Assembly: GCA_903850425.1 (NCBI GenBank)
Contig: CAINLR010000106.1
Location: 62,001-126,000, forward strand
Source: an uncultured Verrucomicrobia subdivision 3 bacterium
Lineage (GTDB): Bacteria; Verrucomicrobiota; Verrucomicrobiia; Limisphaerales; UBA11358
Length of the DNA: 64,000 bases
Direction: 5' to 3'
Position numbers and translations under genes: made by a program. Of this stretch, positions 6,475 to 13,132 are shown in pieces (position 1 is the first letter of the stretch; each line of letters opens with the position of its first letter). The notes beneath the pieces are model-generated. The model was not told where the DNA came from and did no database searches. It worked only from the letters and a program-made list of their open reading frames with translations.

Positions 6475-7686
6475 ATGAAATCATACCGTTCAATTTTCCT
6501 GCTGGCCGGGCTGGTGCAAGGTGCCCTCGCTGCGCAGGCAGACCTCGCGTCCATCATCGCCGACGCCCAAGCCCAGACGGTGCCGTCGCGCCGCGCGAGC
6601 ATCATCTTCATCCAATGCCACGGCTTGGGCTTCGGCGACCTGAGTTGCTACGGTCAGACTAATTACCAGACGCCCAACCTCGACCGGCTCGCCGCCGAAG
6701 GCATGCGCTTCACGAGTTACCACGCCGGCAGCACGGACTTTGCCGCCGCGCAGGCGGCGTTGATGACGGGCAAAAGCTCGTCCACCAGCGAGACGCTCGC
6801 GCCAGGGGGAATCACCGTCGCGCAACAGCTTCAGCAGGCCGGCTACGGCACTGGCCTGATTGGCGAATGGCGGCTCGGGGCCACGCCGTGGACGCAAGGC
6901 TTCGATGAATTCGCCGGTTTTATCCAGCCCGAGGAAGGCCGCAATTATTTTGCCGATTACCTCTGGCGTTACGCGCCGGAAAGCATCCTGAATGAGACCA
7001 ACCATCACATGGAAACCTATGTCGGCAAGGAGATGCTTTTTCCCAATGTCGGTGGCAAGAAAGGTCAGTATCTGCCGGACTTCTTTGCCACCATGACGGT
7101 GAATTTCGTCCGCACCCACCAGCCCGACCAGTTCAATAATTACCGCCCGTTTTTTCTGTTCGTGAGCCTGCCCGCGCCGCGCTCCAGCACCTCCCTGGCC
7201 GATGATTTTCCGGTGCCGACCGACGCGCCGTTCACGGGTGAAAATTGGCCGCAAGCCGCGAAAAACCGCGCCGCCCTCATCACCCGGCTCGACAACGGCA
7301 TCGGGCGGCTGTTCGAGGAACTGCAAAAACTGCAACTGACCAACAACGTCGCCATTTTCTTCACCAGCGCCTGCGGCTCGGAAAAATTCCATGACGCCCG
7401 GCTGAATTTCATGCGGGCTGACGACGAAGTTTCCCAAGGCCAGCCGCGCGTGCCGATGATGGTGCGCTGGCCGGGGACAGTGCCCGCCGGACGCGTCAGC
7501 AGCCTGCCGTGGGGAGCGCGAGATTTCGGTCCGACCGCCGTGAAGATCGCGTCGGCGAAACCGCCAGCCAGCTTCACCGGGATTTCCATTTTGCCAATGC
7601 TTCGTGGCGAACCTGATACCAACTCGCCCGTGCTGCGTGCCGACCATCGGCTGGATCTGGATCCTAAAGCCCCCCAAGGCCAATAA
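6475..7686 (+). CDS. Catalytically degenerate sulfatase-fold protein, exported
   Basis: A 403-residue protein with a signal peptide (MKSYRSIFLLAGLVQGALA) and the recognisable layout of a formylglycine sulfatase. However, each catalytic block is altered. The N-terminal metal pair normally reading D-D-x-G is C48-H49 in 'FIQCHGLGFGDLSCYG'. The C/S-x-P-x-R site that carries formylglycine is F89-A-A-A-Q93 in 'FAAAQAALMTGK'. The later D-N metal pair is A299-C300 in 'IFFTSACGSE'. The surrounding fold residues are kept and the frame is intact, so this appears to be a maintained non-enzyme rather than debris. A binding or scaffold role is inference. ATG 6475 is chosen because the signal peptide begins there. 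Confidence 0.82.
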   Translation: MKSYRSIFLLAGLVQGALAAQADLASIIADAQAQTVPSRRASIIFIQCHGLGFGDLSCYGQTNYQTPNLDRLAAEGMRFTSYHAGSTDFAAAQAALMTGKSSSTSETLAPGGITVAQQLQQAGYGTGLIGEWRLGATPWTQGFDEFAGFIQPEEGRNYFADYLWRYAPESILNETNHHMETYVGKEMLFPNVGGKKGQYLPDFFATMTVNFVRTHQPDQFNNYRPFFLFVSLPAPRSSTSLADDFPVPTDAPFTGENWPQAAKNRAALITRLDNGIGRLFEELQKLQLTNNVAIFFTSACGSEKFHDARLNFMRADDEVSQGQPRVPMMVRWPGTVPAGRVSSLPWGARDFGPTAVKIASAKPPASFTGISILPMLRGEPDTNSPVLRADHRLDLDPKAPQGQ

Positions 7687-7690
7687 GCGG

Positions 7691-7867
7691 TTAGTGCACC
7701 GGCGCACTGCTCGGCAGCGGCGCGCTGAAATCGCGCTGCGCCTCCACTCGCTTGACCGCGAAGGTCATCCAAACAATCGCCAGCACAATGGCGAGCACGG
7801 CGGCAGCCGCAGCAAACCACGGCCATTTGTAATTCGGTCGGGGGAGATTGTCGCCGGGTTCATTCAT
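7691..7867 (-). CDS. Small single-span membrane protein (58 aa)
   Basis: Starts at ATG 7867 (MNEPGDNLPRPNYKWPW) and has one long hydrophobic helix (FAAAAAVLAIVLAIVWMTF) followed by a short charged tail ending in a Pro/Ser-rich segment. The frame converges tail to tail with the sulfatase-like gene, four bases apart. Proteins of this shape are common unannotated inner-membrane microproteins. I do not recognise a family and assign no function. Confidence 0.55.
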   Translation of the reverse strand: MNEPGDNLPRPNYKWPWFAAAAAVLAIVLAIVWMTFAVKRVEAQRDFSAPLPSSAPVH

Positions 7868-7985
7868 CGCGTGATGCTCGCACAAATTAGCCGCCTCAGA
7901 AATGGGTTAGACCGAAAAGGTCTAAGGCTGCCGAGCTGCGGTGGTGATGCGGCCCGTTCATGGCTTTGAAGTAATTCGTCCCGCG

Positions 7986-10115
7986 TTATTCATTTCCTTC
8001 AATTCCGATCCCGGAGGGTGGCAGCGGTAAATAAATCCGAAACGTTGTGCCCTGGCCCAGCGTGCTTTCAACTTCAATTCTTCCCCGGTGGGCTTCGACA
8101 ATCATTTTGCTCTGGAACATGCCGATGCCCAGCCCATTTTTCTTCGTGGTCTGAAACGGCCGAAACAGCGAGCGGCTGAGATATTCCTGGCTCATGCCGC
8201 ACCCGTTATCGGTCACGGTGAGCATGACCCAGCCGTTGTTCTGACTGGTGGCGATGTGAACCTGGCCGGATCGCGACACGGCTTCGCGCGCGTTGAAAAT
8301 TAAATTGGTTGCCACTTTGAACATTTGGTCCGCATCAAACTGCACCGGCGGCACCGGCGGCAAATCCTTGGTCAGATTGATCCCGGCGACGTCCTCCCAA
8401 CCGGCCAGCGCTTTGGTGACCAGCTCGTTCAGGTCGCCCGCCACCGGTTTGATTTCCAGTTCGTGGCGGATGGAACTCAGGCGGCTGATCAGGCGGTTGA
8501 TGTGCGCGACGGTTTTGGCCACGCCCCGCAACGCGTCCGCGCGAAAGGCTGGATCGTCAAAATGCACCGGGAGATTTTGCAGCATCAGGTTGAGCGTGTT
8601 CGCCGTGTTTTTCAAATCATGCACAAAAAATGCCGACATGGTTTGAAACGCTTCAAGTTCCTTTGCTTGCAGCAGTTTTTGCGAAAGCCGGGTGTTGAGC
8701 AGGCCGGCCGCAAGCTGATCGCCAATGCATTTGAGCAGATCAAAGTCCTGCCAGGAAAAGGGCAAACCGCCCACGCGATCGCCTAACACCATGCAGCCCA
8801 CGAGTTCGTGGCCGACAATCATCGGCACACAAACACGATGACTGCCTTTCTGGAATTCATCGGGATGGCAGCGCCGCAAGGTTGCGGCCCAGGGAGTTTT
8901 GGATTCGTCAATGTCCACGGGTTCGTTTTGGCTTTGCAGCGCTTTGATCGCATCGGCAACCTCGGCTTTCGGTGGCAGCAGGCTTTCGGCCCGCGCCTCG
9001 GACAGGAAGGTTGAGGCCGCGAACACCAGTTGTTCCTGGTTGTCATCCACCAGCCAGATGGTCACGGACAAGGCTTGGAAAATGTCGGTGACGGATTTGA
9101 CCGCCGCCTGGCAAAGCTCGGTTTGTTTCACGCAGGAGGCGGTGGCTTCGGTGAACTTGCGCCACACCGTGCGGTAATCATAGAGCGGACGTTGAAAGTG
9201 CCGGCTGACAAAACGGCTGGTGTATAACCGCACGCGGTCAGACAACAGCAAAATCGTGAGCGCCACGAGCGCGGCTAAAATAATGAAGGCCTTGGCCGTG
9301 AACGCTTCGTCACCGCCCCAAAGCGTCACCAACTTGGCAAAAACGCCAATGACCAGCAGATAAATTCCCGCCAGCACCACGGTGAGGGAATTTTGCAGCA
9401 CGGAATGCGACGGATAAACATCCATGTCGAAATGGCCGGCGCGGAATAGGGATCGGAAAATCAAAAGGCCCCCCACCAGCAGTGCCCCGGCGTCCACCAC
9501 CAGAAGATTTCGGTCAAAGGCCTGCAATATCAGGGCTTGGGTGCTCGTATAGAAGCGCACGGCAAACAAAACGATCAGCCCCAAAATCATGAACTTGATG
9601 CGCCAGCGCATGGTGCCCACTGAAGCGCGGAAGGTTCGTTCGAGATTCATCGCCACTAGCACCAAGCTTACCAAACACAGCAAGTTCAGAAAAAAGCCCG
9701 GCCAGCCCAAACCCAGCCGCCAATGTCCCGCATGGTTTTGGGACGCACTGACCACGAGATACGAGTTGCAAAAAGTGCCCAGCGCCAGCGGAGCAAAAAG
9801 GAAAACGCCCAGAATCCAACGCCAGCGTTTCAAAAAATCACGCTGATTACCACGGCCATAGCTCAGGCTGAAATACAGCCAGAGGGCCGGAAAACACGAC
9901 ATGGCCGCCAACCTCCAATGCTGCCAGTAAACCACTTCGGGCACCGTTTCGGCCGCCAGCGATAGCCCGTTAAAAAAACTCTCAACCGCCAAGGCCACCA
10001 TGCCCGCGACAAAGGAAAAGGGCACCGCCGAGCGGCGTTCGTTCCAGGCCACAGCGAACGCCAGCGCGCCTCCAAAAATGGCGCTCGCGTAAGCAAGTAA
10101 AGCAGCGGTATTCAT
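7986..10115 (-). CDS. prsK: PrsK-like membrane histidine kinase of the PEP-CTERM/exosortase regulon
   Basis: About 709 residues. The first ~300 form several membrane helices; a GAF-like sensor region follows (roughly 380-530), then a kinase core with the phospho-histidine in 'FFVHDLKNTANTL' (H499). The ATPase boxes are 'NLIFNAREAV', 'VTDNGCGM' and 'GLGIGMFQSK'. The H-D-L-K-N form of the H box and the many-helix N-terminus are typical of PrsK, the sensor that with PrsR controls sigma-54 dependent PEP-CTERM genes. This start begins right at the first helix; a longer frame opens with TTG at 10193, inside a terminator, and is unlikely. The gene next door is a CTERM protein with a sigma-54 promoter. 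PrsR is not in the window. Confidence 0.82.
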   Translation of the reverse strand: MNTAALLAYASAIFGGALAFAVAWNERRSAVPFSFVAGMVALAVESFFNGLSLAAETVPEVVYWQHWRLAAMSCFPALWLYFSLSYGRGNQRDFLKRWRWILGVFLFAPLALGTFCNSYLVVSASQNHAGHWRLGLGWPGFFLNLLCLVSLVLVAMNLERTFRASVGTMRWRIKFMILGLIVLFAVRFYTSTQALILQAFDRNLLVVDAGALLVGGLLIFRSLFRAGHFDMDVYPSHSVLQNSLTVVLAGIYLLVIGVFAKLVTLWGGDEAFTAKAFIILAALVALTILLLSDRVRLYTSRFVSRHFQRPLYDYRTVWRKFTEATASCVKQTELCQAAVKSVTDIFQALSVTIWLVDDNQEQLVFAASTFLSEARAESLLPPKAEVADAIKALQSQNEPVDIDESKTPWAATLRRCHPDEFQKGSHRVCVPMIVGHELVGCMVLGDRVGGLPFSWQDFDLLKCIGDQLAAGLLNTRLSQKLLQAKELEAFQTMSAFFVHDLKNTANTLNLMLQNLPVHFDDPAFRADALRGVAKTVAHINRLISRLSSIRHELEIKPVAGDLNELVTKALAGWEDVAGINLTKDLPPVPPVQFDADQMFKVATNLIFNAREAVSRSGQVHIATSQNNGWVMLTVTDNGCGMSQEYLSRSLFRPFQTTKKNGLGIGMFQSKMIVEAHRGRIEVESTLGQGTTFRIYLPLPPSGIGIEGNE

Positions 10116-10191
10116 CGTCGAGCCCGTAAGCCAAGCACGCACATCATCCCATAAGTCCGTCACCCTGGCACCAAAGAAAACCCATTCGGAC

Positions 10192-10226
10192 AAAAATTAA
10201 GGGCAGGGAAAAATCCCTGCCCTTAA
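10192..10226 (-). terminator. Rho-independent terminator after the CTERM protein gene
   Basis: A perfect 13-bp stem, TTAAGGGCAGGGA paired with TCCCTGCCCTTAA, closes a 4-base loop. On the minus strand it is followed by five T residues (10192-10196). It lies 27 bases after the stop of the CTERM gene and before the kinase start, so the two minus-strand genes are probably separate transcripts. Confidence 0.88.
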
Positions 10227-10252
10227 CTTGAATTTGATTGATGGTCTAAAAT

Positions 10253-10840
10253 TTAAGCCATCAATTTGCGCTTGATGAGCGCCATACCGGAGAGCGCGGC
10301 ACCGAGGAGCAGCACAGTCGTGCCACCATCCGGAACCGAGTGCTGCGAGGCCGAGAACGTAAAGGTCTGGGTTGACGGAACGGAAGCCGGGTCTTGGAAC
10401 GTGATGGCGAAGTCCCAGAGCGTGGCGTCATAGCCAGCCACATGGATCAAACCAGTGCCATAAACGCTGACATAATCGCTGCCGAAAATATTGCCGCGAA
10501 CAAAGGTGGCGTTCTGGAGATCAAAGCTGACCGCCGGTCCAACGGCCGTCCAGAAACCAGTGATCAAGCTAGAAACCGTGAAGTTCCAAGGCGCAACGAA
10601 CGCGACCTGAGTGTTGGCAGGAAGAACGGTGCCGAGGATGCCGCTGGAGGACTGGACAACTGGATTAGCCGTGGTCGCACCAGACCAACCGGTGACGGTG
10701 GTCGCCGTGGCCGCCGTGGCACTGTTCAAAGTGGCATTGCCGGCAAAGCCGATGGCCCCGGTGATCGGAATGGCTTGCGTGGATTGAGCCAGAGCCAAGA
10801 TGGCTGCGGCACCGACGATAGTGAGTAATGTGTTCTTCAT
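10253..10840 (-). CDS. VPDSG-type CTERM sorting-signal protein, exported
   Basis: A 195-residue protein with an N-terminal signal peptide (MKNTLLTIVGAAAILALAQS, cut near A-I-P). The small, Ala/Thr-rich passenger domain has no family I recognise. The C-terminus is a tripartite sorting signal: 'VPDGGTTVLLLG', a hydrophobic helix, then K-R-K. VPDSG-CTERM is the Verrucomicrobia variant of PEP-CTERM, cleaved by an exosortase-type protease after Tat/Sec export. A sigma-54 promoter precedes it and a strong terminator follows, so it is a single-gene transcription unit, likely answering to the PrsK kinase encoded downstream. The exosortase is not in this window. Confidence 0.87.
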   Translation of the reverse strand: MKNTLLTIVGAAAILALAQSTQAIPITGAIGFAGNATLNSATAATATTVTGWSGATTANPVVQSSSGILGTVLPANTQVAFVAPWNFTVSSLITGFWTAVGPAVSFDLQNATFVRGNIFGSDYVSVYGTGLIHVAGYDATLWDFAITFQDPASVPSTQTFTFSASQHSVPDGGTTVLLLGAALSGMALIKRKLMA

Positions 10841-10884
10841 ATTCTGTAGCTGGTTATTGTTTGGTTACAACTGAAGTAGATTAA

Positions 10885-10899
10885 GCAAAGCCAGTGCCA
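10885..10899 (-). promoter_or_regulatory. Sigma-54 (-24/-12) promoter of the CTERM gene
   Basis: Reading the minus strand, TTGGCAC-TGGCT-TTGCT matches the sigma-54 consensus (TGGCAC, five bases, TTGC). The GG and GC dinucleotides are spaced exactly as required, twelve bases from the second G to the C. Transcription would begin near 10873, leaving a leader of about 33 bases before the ATG at 10840. PEP-CTERM genes are known to be driven by sigma-54 with the PrsK/PrsR pair, which agrees with the neighbouring kinase. Confidence 0.8.
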
Positions 10900-10900
10900 A

Positions 10901-11209
10901 CCCGGCCAAACCAACAAAAACATTCACAAGCAGCTTTTTTACAGTTACTTACAAAATACTTCATCCACCTCCACTGAACGCCAACCCAAGCTAAAGTGTA
11001 AGCCGTTCCGACAACTCCCGCTACTTTGGCCCACAATAATATCGTAACACGTTTGTGATCAGCACTATACATTGTTATTGGGCTGCGTAATCAGTTCTGA
11101 CAGGTCCCCAGACCAATACTTGAGAATTCCGCTTTGCTCAGCTATGTAATTGAATACCAATGCTTTAAACAAATTGCGAAGCCTGATCCAGTTGTCCAAA
11201 ATGAGGCGA
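10901..11209. other. Intergenic region, probably regulatory
   Basis: About 310 bases without a convincing gene between the sigma-54 promoter and the CPXCG gene. The base composition is visibly AT-richer than the flanking genes. A sigma-54 activator binding site (for example for PrsR) would be expected in this upstream part, but I cannot pick out a repeated operator with confidence. Confidence 0.45.
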
Positions 11210-11389
11210 TCAGCCCGAAGATACATCCAGACTCAAGACCTCGCCGGGTTGACATTCGACCGTGACTTCGAATGGACGGCAGCAAACTTCGCAATCCGTC
11301 GTCAAGCGCTGGTTCGCCACGCTGGTGTCAATGGCCACCTCGGACGCTTGACCGCAAAAGGGACATAAAATGGATTCGTAAACTTCCAT
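11210..11389 (-). CDS. CPXCG motif-containing cysteine-rich protein
   Basis: A 59-residue protein with two paired-cysteine sites, 'LCPFCG' near the N-terminus and 'DCEVCCRPF' in the middle. It matches the small CPXCG-motif family, whose members presumably bind one zinc ion and whose function is not established. The length is normal. ATG 11389 is preferred over 11395 because the family starts just ahead of the first CPxCG. Confidence 0.85.
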   Translation of the reverse strand: MEVYESILCPFCGQASEVAIDTSVANQRLTTDCEVCCRPFEVTVECQPGEVLSLDVSSG

Positions 11390-11569
11390 GCACACATTCT
11401 AACGGCGCAATTGATGGGCTGCGAGCTTTCAAAACGGATTGGGCGGCGGTCCAGAATTGCCGATGGCCCAGACCACCCAATACTTGCAACGTAATCAGTG
11501 CAATTTGGTTTTGGGATTTGCCACCTTGGCCGGATTCAGAGATAGTAGCGCTCCGTTTTACGGCCATTT

Positions 11570-13132
11570 ATGAAACCCCAAGTCGAAATCTACGACACGA
11601 CCCTGCGCGACGGTTCGCAGGGCGAAGGCATCAACTTTTCGGTGGCGGACAAAATCCGCATTGCCGAAAAGCTCGATGCTTTTGGCGTGCATTACATTGA
11701 AGGCGGCTGGCCGGGCAGCAATCCCAAGGACATCGAGTTTTTCGCGCAGGCCAAAAAATTGAAATTCAAAAAGGCCCGGCTCGCCGCGTTTGGCTCGACG
11801 CGGAAGAAAGGCGTGCCGGTGGAACAAGACGATCAGGTGCGGTTGCTGATCGAAGCCGGAACGCCCGTCGTCACGATCTACGGCAAGACCTCGATGTTGC
11901 ATGTCAAAGAAGTTCTGCGCTGCTCGCCTGAGGAAAATCTCGCGATGATCGGCGACACCGTGCGCTATCTGAAGGACCACGGAAAATTTGTCATTTACGA
12001 CGCCGAGCACGCGTTTGACGGTTATAAGCTCAACGCCGAATACGCGCTCGACACCTGGCGCGCAGCGGAAAAAGCGGGCGCAGATTTCGTGGTTTTGTGC
12101 GATACGAATGGCGGTTGTCTGCCACAGGAAATCGCCGCAATCACGAAGACCGCTTTCGGCCAATTGAATTGCAACATCGGCATCCATACGCACGACGATA
12201 TCGGTCTCGGCGTGGCAAACGCGCTGGCCGCGCTGGAAGTCGGCGCGGTGCATGTGCAAGGCACGATCAACGGTTACGGCGAACGCACGGGCAACTGCAA
12301 TTTGACCAGCGTCATTCCCTGCGTCGCGCTGAAGCTGAAGCAAACCTGTGTGCCGGTGCAGTCGCTGGCGAAGCTCAAGGAACTTTCCATGTTCGTGGAT
12401 GAAGTCGCCAACTTGCGTCATAATCCGCGTCTGCCATGGGTGGGTTCGTCCGCCTTTGCGCACAAAGGCGGCGCGCACGTCAACGCCGTGCAGAAGCTCG
12501 CGTCCAGCTATGAGCACATCAATCCCGAGCTCGTCGGCAACGAACGCAACATTCTCATCAGCGATCTCGCGGGCCGCAGCAACATCGTCATCAAAGCGCA
12601 GGAACTCGGTTTCAAGATCACGAACGAAACGCCGGAGTTGCGCCAGATTCTCGACACGATCAAACAGCGCGAGCACGAGGGCTACGAGTTTGAAGCGGCC
12701 GAGGCTTCGATGGCTTTGATCATCCGCAGCATCCTCGACCACAATCCGGCGCTGCTGTTCGACGTGGAGAACTATCACGTCTCCATGCGCCGCGATGCGA
12801 AGCAATCCATCTGCGAGGCGACGGTGCAGGTGCGCGTCGGCAAGAAGCTCCATGACGAAGTGGCGCAAGGCGACGGCCCGGTGAATGCACTGGATTCCGC
12901 CCTCCGCGCCGCGTTGGCCAAATCGTTCCCGAAGCTCAAGCAGGTGACGCTCACGGATTACAAGGTGCGCATCCTCGACGGCGTGGCCGGCACGGCGGCG
13001 AAGACCCGTGTGCTCATCGAATCCAGCGACGGCAAACGCGAATGGGGCACCGTCGGCGTAAGCGAAAACATCATCGAAGCCAGCTTGCAGGCGCTGGTGG
13101 ACTCGATGGAATACGCGCTGCTGAAGAAATAA
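11570..13132 (+). CDS. cimA: (R)-citramalate synthase
   Basis: A 520-residue HMGL-like enzyme that condenses acetyl-CoA with pyruvate to citramalate, feeding the threonine-independent isoleucine pathway. The TIM-barrel domain begins with 'YDTTLRDGSQGEG' and carries the metal ligands in 'GIHTHDDIGLGVANA' and the 'GYGERTGNCNL' motif. A C-terminal LeuA-type regulatory domain follows, from about residue 390. The wording 'DGSQGEGINFS' and length separate it from LeuA isopropylmalate synthase. It is followed by an inverted repeat and then valS, a pairing that fits branched-chain amino acid metabolism though co-transcription is uncertain. Confidence 0.92.
   Translation: MKPQVEIYDTTLRDGSQGEGINFSVADKIRIAEKLDAFGVHYIEGGWPGSNPKDIEFFAQAKKLKFKKARLAAFGSTRKKGVPVEQDDQVRLLIEAGTPVVTIYGKTSMLHVKEVLRCSPEENLAMIGDTVRYLKDHGKFVIYDAEHAFDGYKLNAEYALDTWRAAEKAGADFVVLCDTNGGCLPQEIAAITKTAFGQLNCNIGIHTHDDIGLGVANALAALEVGAVHVQGTINGYGERTGNCNLTSVIPCVALKLKQTCVPVQSLAKLKELSMFVDEVANLRHNPRLPWVGSSAFAHKGGAHVNAVQKLASSYEHINPELVGNERNILISDLAGRSNIVIKAQELGFKITNETPELRQILDTIKQREHEGYEFEAAEASMALIIRSILDHNPALLFDVENYHVSMRRDAKQSICEATVQVRVGKKLHDEVAQGDGPVNALDSALRAALAKSFPKLKQVTLTDYKVRILDGVAGTAAKTRVLIESSDGKREWGTVGVSENIIEASLQALVDSMEYALLKK

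Follow-up and report, generated by a model that had tools for sequence, protein, structure and literature searches.

A PrsK/PrsR-type sigma-54 circuit very probably governs VPDSG-CTERM surface proteins in an uncultured Verrucomicrobium

The closest described relative of the system treated here is the Prs system of PEP-CTERM surface proteins. In the available sections of Haft 2006 (PMC1569441), a 17-nucleotide (nt) motif 1 ending in TTTACA, sometimes repeated, precedes a -24/-12 motif 2, and the spacer between the two averages 62.8 nt (range 32-92) in 13 proteobacterial species. According to the same sections the motif was confined to Proteobacteria among the CTERM-bearing species then known, and Verrucomicrobium spinosum had 65 PEP-CTERM genes without PrsK, PrsR or PrsT. 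For Aquincola tertiaricarbonis, the accessible part of the report (PMC9850573) describes an RpoN1-dependent pepA with a -24/-12 element (TGGCAC / CTGCTT), a mapped start and a predicted upstream enhancer, and a prsT that is unaffected by RpoN1 loss. Here, we describe a corresponding arrangement in a 64,000 nt stretch of DNA (the window; bases 62001-126000 of contig CAINLR010000106.1, C106) from an uncultured Verrucomicrobia subdivision 3 bacterium, whose genome comprises 6.9 Mb in 197 contigs. The sequences make it very probable that an enhancer-dependent PrsK/PrsR/sigma-54 circuit controls surface proteins with the VPDSG-CTERM signal, sorted by the exosortase XrtC, in this Verrucomicrobium.

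On the minus strand the window carries, in order of transcription, a distal and a strong copy of motif 1, a -24/-12 element, a CTERM gene, a hairpin with a T tract, and prsK:

11086..11102, minus strand: distal, weaker copy of motif 1, TGTCAGAACTGATTACG, 185 nt upstream of TTGGCAC; 7.8 bits
10997..11013, minus strand: proximal PrsR-type activator site (motif 1), TGTCGGAACGGCTTACA, 96 nt upstream of TTGGCAC
10883..10900, minus strand: sigma-54 -24/-12 promoter, TTGGCACTGGCTTTGCTT, scoring 16.6 of 17.3, the top of the upstream region
10253..10840, minus strand: gene of a VPDSG-CTERM surface protein (TIGR03778, PF18205, homologues at the same place in relatives, AlphaFold)
10226..10197 (hairpin) and 10196..10192 (T tract), minus strand: predicted intrinsic terminator between the CTERM gene and prsK
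7986..10115, minus strand: prsK, membrane sensor histidine kinase (TIGR02916; PF16927 seven-transmembrane, GAF and HATPase_c domains)

Sigma-54 promoters follow the consensus TGGCAC-N5-TTGCW with the core GG-N10-GC, the GC being placed at -13/-12. The window element matches core and consensus exactly. TGGCAC-N5-TTGC occupies 10899..10885, its last base is 45 nt before the ATG at 10840, and setting the C of the GC at -12 predicts a transcription start at 10873. The initial annotation of this DNA had given the same 45 nt and a start near 10873, both right by the usual sigma-54 geometry, and had overlooked the predicted activator site upstream, the 17-nt pattern YGTCGG-N5-YTTACA. The proximal copy of this motif 1 scored 25.3 of 28.7 bits on a matrix that includes the site itself. 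The distal copy, in a score range (7 bits or more) with a background frequency of 5e-5 per position, has its likeness in three relatives (L065, L074 and L075), where TGTCAG-N6-TTACG lies at 187-188 nt. A pattern search of the 6.9-Mb genome for the composite of motif 1 and -24/-12 gave two sites, the one in the window and one on contig C183, both before VPDSG-type genes. The PEP-CTERM genes of this genome (15 matches, 13 over the PF07589 cut-off) reached a -24/-12 score of 13.6/17.3 at best (L040, the same gene as L022, was omitted from the scoring of CTERM upstream regions). They appear to lie outside the regulon, since these scores are low and the composite search gave just the two VPDSG-type genes.

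The CTERM open reading frame (ORF) 10840..10253 encodes 195 amino acids with a signal peptide, a small beta domain and a C-terminus of VPDGG, transmembrane helix and basic tail (SVPDGGTTVLLLGAALSGMALIKRKLMA). It scored 27.8 bits on TIGR03778 (cut-off 22) and 32.4 bits on PF18205 (cut-off 25). The AlphaFold model has a mean predicted local distance difference test (pLDDT) value of 83.3 and places the beta domain between N- and C-terminal helices. Foldseek returned no match at E<=0.001 for this fold, the best VIA-align Z of 6.6 is in a range commonly met, and, there being no confident structural match, no function was drawn from the beta domain. The kinase scored 391.7 bits on the PrsK model TIGR02916 (cut-off 300) and is the sole gene over that cut-off in the genome, the next best reaching 105. 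With both families over their cut-offs, the PrsK-type kinase which the initial annotation had placed beside a VPDSG-CTERM gene is confirmed. The two genes share a strand and have 59 nt between them, or 137 nt when counted to the ATG of prsK, an adjacency kept in relatives. Two start codons are candidates for prsK, ATG 10115 and TTG 10193; the alignments of relatives begin at the ATG, and the TTG is less likely because it lies inside the terminator T tract. On the minus strand at 10115-10190, 3′ of the terminator, a short conserved TTTCTTT..TGC followed by TTATG is shared with relatives and may be prsK's own promoter.

The remaining parts of the circuit are found elsewhere in the genome. PrsR, on contig C141, scored 618.5 bits on TIGR02915 (cut-off 502.6) as the single gene over the cut-off, and RpoN is present in one copy (PF04552, 195.9 bits), so that the prsR and rpoN expected by the initial annotation both exist here. 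On C183, the cognate exosortase of the VPDSG signal, XrtC (TIGR04151, 311.6 bits, cut-off 300), is followed by PrsT (TIGR02917, 403 bits, cut-off 312.2). Directly behind xrtC-prsT lies the second target, with the composite between prsT and a CTERM gene. Its protein has a signal of 24.4 bits on TIGR03778 (cut-off 22) and no NCBIfam match at E <= 1e-5. The same contig also carries glycosyltransferase and flippase-like genes (read from ORFs), a nucleotide-sugar dehydrogenase and an EpsL-like protein below cut-off, and prsR on C141 adjoins an exopolysaccharide-export-type protein that is likewise below its cut-off. Beside prsR (L058:10058-13863) there are, by eye, an RsbU-type phosphatase-like ORF with a GAF domain and a single-domain response regulator, and also a WecG-type glycosyltransferase fused to anti-sigma-factor-antagonist domains. 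As a separate observation, six exosortase-like matches occur in the source genome (L053-L057 and C68:229-942), one of them over the TIGR02602 cut-off; together with the 13 PEP-CTERM genes without a composite they possibly reflect several parallel sorting systems.

The comparison was extended to 49 genomes of the genus, in which PrsK was found in 13 (threshold E <= 1e-60). In nine of the 13 prsK loci the kinase gene is immediately preceded by a VPDSG-type CTERM ORF whose start has a -24/-12 element 57-86 nt before it; the CTERM ORF of L075 starts with a codon other than ATG. Of the remaining four loci, L064 (G040) starts within the CTERM gene, L073 holds a partial kinase, and in L070 and L072 the kinase has no CTERM ORF immediately before it. 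In the relatives the element mostly stands 53-81 nt before the ATG when the first T of TTGGCA is taken as reference, and above it stands a second shared block, GTCGG-N6-TTACA. A scan of 1.04 Mb of loci (both strands counted, overlaps included) for motif 1 followed by a good -24/-12 within 25-150 nt gave 16 site pairs at 15 promoters. Thirteen of these had a VPDSG/VPDAA-type ORF in the scan, and the ORFs of L019 and L075 were identified separately.

A composite-pattern search at family level, which covered the same 49 genomes, yielded 19 sites spread over 11 of them; the reversed pattern gave 3 sites in 3 genomes. A CTERM gene follows every one of the 19 sites, in one case truncated by the end of the contig. 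In 16 of the 19, motif 1 and the GG are 98-102 nt apart; the pattern permitted 95-125. Measured to TTGGCA, the spacer is mostly 96-100 nt, and the wider scan (25-150 nt to the TTGGCA start) showed the same cluster with exceptions at 43, 106, 119 and 122. Genomes with a composite make up 11 of the 13 PrsK-positive ones (all but G023 and G029) and none of the 36 others (Fisher p 2.7e-9, kinship uncorrected). PrsR over the cut-off was likewise present in 10/13 and 0/36 (Fisher p 3.5e-8, kinship uncorrected), and the three PrsK-positive genomes lacking it (G002, G029 and G044) all have merely partial PrsK matches. The full signal of TIGR03778, selected by us as over the cut-off and from model position 1 or 2, occurred in 13/13 against 3/36 (G001, G027 and G045; Fisher p 2.1e-9, kinship uncorrected); without selection on the signal start, 21 of the 49 genomes were over the cut-off. 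With all 19 composites before CTERM genes and found in PrsK-positive genomes only, these counts support the proposal of the initial annotation that the PrsK/PrsR/sigma-54 circuit acts on the VPDSG variant. The patchy occurrence of PrsK in the genus (13/49 genomes; L063-L075) suggests that the circuit as a whole was lost or gained repeatedly.

The VPDSG genes of the genus numbered 42 (38 over the cut-off, 4 just below), or 41 after G040 C109, which starts at a contig edge, was dropped. The strict composite precedes 19 of the 41, G002 included. By letting bases vary in either motif (softened matrix, threshold 15; at 13 the background is 8e-6 per position), the number increased by 10 to 29. Four of the ten softened sites fit their start codon badly, lying after the codon chosen by the script or 210-236 nt before it (G029 C22, G026 C69:14903, G023 C137 and G022 C23:76093), which leaves a clean count of 25; the ORF of G023 C137 moreover continues past the sorting signal. 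A site before the G023 C61 gene went uncounted, the first ATG of its ORF being about 370 nt further on. When softened sites are included, each of the 13 PrsK-positive genomes has at least one composite. One site was also found in G045, a 66% complete genome scored PrsK-negative; the other PrsK-negative genomes were searched with the strict pattern.

To look beyond the genus, ten PrsK sequences were used for a profile search of GTDB genomes, in which 121 stretches were confirmed; the best 80 loci were analysed. By title these are mostly Verrucomicrobial metagenome-assembled genomes, with some Acidobacteria/Bryobacterales and Deltaproteobacteria. They are not all independent, because several are contigs of genus members (L163 is G040, L164 is G048). 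Composites were detected in 37 of the 80 loci (48 site pairs, 47 promoters), whereas six permuted or reversed motifs gave 0-1 each; in the other 43 no composite was seen. With spacers of 0-300 nt, all loci together gave 86 pairs against 3 (reversed) and 0 (one permuted). Forty-two of the 47 promoters stand before a CTERM ORF and three run off the contig (L214, L220 and one in L222). In the Deltaproteobacterial L229, PEP-CTERM genes of VPEP type have the same motif with spacers of 61 and 95. A PrsR-like ORF (52% identity or more over >400 aligned residues) is in the same locus in 65 of the 80. Of the 60 loci having more than 1.2 kb of sequence before prsK, 18 place a CTERM-like ORF immediately ahead of it by a loose tail pattern, and two of these matches (L220 and L231) look false. 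Very small CTERM proteins of 56-69 amino acids, about a signal peptide plus a sorting signal, were also noticed in L021 (C22:7888, the source genome), L156 (G016 C267), L158 (G048 C268), L159 (G048 C17) and L186 (13549); the genes in L156 and L186 have the full PrsR/sigma-54 composite promoter.

A second motif 1 copy (matrix score of at least 6, for which the background is 1.2e-4 per position) accompanied 30 of the 61 site entries, L214 being entered twice. The spacers cluster near 86, 98, 108 and 119. A periodicity test over periods of 10.0-11.5 was applied to 61 spacers. Not one of 2000 jittered sets matched their strength, and when the test was limited to the 31 spacers that fall outside the main cluster, 2 of 2000 did. 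The strongest period lay at about 11.25-11.5, a little longer than the 10.5 of B-DNA. This helical phasing counts in favour of the circuit.

Several results weigh against the proposed circuit or limit its reach. Neither of its two sequence elements is enriched when taken singly: TGGCAC-N5-TTGC had 17 exact sites in the whole genome against 19 for the reversed control, which rules out the -24/-12 alone as a regulon marker, and motif 1 had 5 exact matches against 11 reversed. The other four motif 1 matches were rejected, being within long ORFs with no good -24/-12 within 200 nt (best 10.2-12.2). Just the pair carries information; the -24/-12 becomes informative because it is paired with the upstream activator motif and conserved at the orthologous place in relatives. 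The genome scan for TGGCAC-N5-TTGC that the initial annotation had proposed is for this reason a poor guide, and the exact pattern precedes one of five VPDSG candidates here, the window gene, while the C183 gene has the variant GGGCAT-N5-TTGC and the remaining three have no such pattern. Its proposed VPDSG regulon holds for two of the three over-cut-off genes of this genome and not for all VPDSG genes: the C120 gene has no site, the sub-threshold candidates C22 and C126 have no composite, and in the genus 12 of the 41 testable VPDSG genes have no site in place. The regulon is thus a subset. Among the 47 promoters beyond the genus, two composites precede non-CTERM genes (L175 and L210). These sites, L210:4414 and L175:3731 (minus), have enough downstream sequence and no CTERM gene, and may be other PrsR targets or chance. 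Kinship among the 49 genomes inflates the Fisher values, and the phasing values are optimistic because related promoter sequences were counted.

The missing enrichment of the exact pattern (17 vs 19) would agree with a -24/-12 match that arose by chance, an ordinary housekeeping promoter serving the gene instead. Such a coincidence would have to recur in 11 genomes at a similar distance from the start codon and with motif 1 at a nearly fixed spacing, where the controls are near zero, and no sigma-70-like site is listed on the minus strand of 7600-11600; we regard it as extremely unlikely. A real sigma-54 promoter might instead be worked by another NtrC-like activator, prsK being a chance neighbour. 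The genome does encode six further activators with receiver and AAA regions (335-414 bits on TIGR02915), and prsR is unlinked to prsK: the tandem or close placement of prsK and prsR in the Prs system is absent here, with the genes on C106 and C141, and is seen in G018, G022, G023 and G024, where the two are adjacent. Against this stand the distributions of the composite (11/13 PrsK-positive vs 0/36) and of PrsR (10/13 vs 0/36), and the helix-turn-helix of PrsR. Its recognition region [SI]RPT[LFV]Y, where L199 has G in place of S, is retained by PrsR-like proteins of Verrucomicrobial, Acidobacterial and Deltaproteobacterial origin (58% identity and more), and the six other activators differ from PrsR in this region. 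A Vibrio alfacsensis plasmid (113 kb; prsK, prsR, prsT and xrtA), the lone plasmid record matching PrsK (27% identity), also speaks for PrsR. On this proteobacterial yardstick, the DNA upstream of two annotated PEP-CTERM genes, when viewed directly, contains TGTCAGTTTATTTTACA and TGTCGATATATTTTACA, 49 and 71 nt before a -24/-12 (counted by hand), in the looser form TGTC[AG][GA]-N5-TTTACA; the strict composite with GTCGG has no site in the 113 kb. Control by another activator is therefore held to be improbable.

A further alternative accepts the circuit and concerns its output. The CTERM gene and prsK could form one transcript, which would make the circuit mainly a positive autoregulatory loop of the kinase, and their shared strand, close spacing (59 nt, 137 nt to the ATG) and kept adjacency are what such a unit would look like. 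The region between them, 10252..10170, folds with a minimum free energy of -31.1 kcal/mol (z -4.8), and 9/9 loci that contain both genes have a strong hairpin here (-18.3 to -27.2 kcal/mol), each running into a T-rich stretch, of which that of L075 is the weakest. In six aligned sequences, the window and five relatives, several stem pairs are changed on both sides with pairing kept, for example T-A/C-G, G-C/A-T, G-C/C-G and A-T/G-C; cells without pairing occur only in the outer second pair and the two loop-adjacent pairs. A single-gene CTERM transcript is therefore favoured by the hairpin in all nine loci. The pepA-prsT pair of Aquincola, as far as the consulted part of PMC9850573 goes, has the same layout with a prsT indifferent to RpoN1 loss. 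Low-level read-through past the hairpin is possible, and we judge the shared transcript unlikely, though less so than another activator.

The circuit that we prefer, with PrsK and PrsR acting on single CTERM genes, may be depicted as follows. PrsK (10115..7986) would sense an envelope or exopolysaccharide signal and phosphorylate PrsR, encoded on C141. PrsR would bind one or two YGTCGG-N5-YTTACA sites, 96 and 185 nt upstream, and loop to RpoN-RNA polymerase at the -24/-12, with transcription starting near 10873. The CTERM transcript would cover this one gene and stop at the hairpin ahead of prsK, and the protein would be exported, sorted at VPDGG by XrtC (C183) and joined to the cell surface or exopolysaccharide. 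A second target of the circuit would lie directly behind xrtC-prsT, in the exopolysaccharide cluster. The parts themselves, their conservation and co-occurrence, and the specificity and spacing of the sites are computed observations; we infer from them the phosphorylation, binding, looping, termination, sorting and signal.

A broader scheme can be put forward tentatively, and we think it rather unlikely as a whole. One helically phased enhancer code (YGTCGG-N5-YTTACR plus -24/-12) would mark sorted surface proteins of any exosortase class in Verrucomicrobiota, Acidobacteriota and Deltaproteobacteria, and the Verrucomicrobial CTERM protein encoded before prsK, with its conserved terminator, would be a dedicated reporter substrate whose sorting state is read by PrsK, making the circuit a monitor of exosortase or exopolysaccharide export. 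Apart from this scheme, one Verrucomicrobial genome here combines the element, regulators, sorter and targets, and loci with Acidobacteria in their titles contain the element as well. The composite pattern recovers targets almost without background and so provides a directly testable regulon for uncultured lineages, as well as a sequence rule for naming surface proteins without known homologues. It also ties VPDSG/XrtC sorting to exopolysaccharide genes.

No published description was found of the regulation of VPDSG-CTERM/XrtC, nor, by title and abstract start, of a Prs circuit outside Proteobacteria; subscription literature was largely outside the search, so an earlier account is possible. 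The best reading is that the circuit itself is known and that the phylum, the signal class with its exosortase, and the longer spacer are new. The VPDSG-CTERM and XrtC families (TIGR03778 and TIGR04151) describe sorting, and here the signal of the window gene and XrtC are both over cut-off. When set beside the available sections of Haft 2006, the system shares the three protein families, a 17-nt motif ending in [CT]TTACA before a -24/-12, the single-gene CTERM units and the association with exopolysaccharide genes and an exosortase. Compared by description and not by logo, motif 1 fits that of the same source in length, 3′ end, position, occasional repetition and the two looser Vibrio matches. 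It differs from what those sections describe in being found in Verrucomicrobiota (and loci titled Acidobacteria), with the VPDSG signal and XrtC, and in that prsK adjoins the CTERM gene and is unlinked from prsR in this genome. The spacer of 96 nt, mostly 96-100 in the genus, is outside the 32-92 given there; we treat it as a variant, because that range is descriptive and drawn from 13 Proteobacteria. With pepA-prsT of Aquincola, as presented in the accessible part of PMC9850573, the window locus has in common a -24/-12, a predicted upstream enhancer, and a terminator that separates the CTERM gene from the Prs gene behind it. In Aquincola this is a proteobacterial PEP-CTERM protein encoded upstream of prsT and supported by experiment, whereas here it is a VPDSG protein encoded upstream of prsK and described from sequence.

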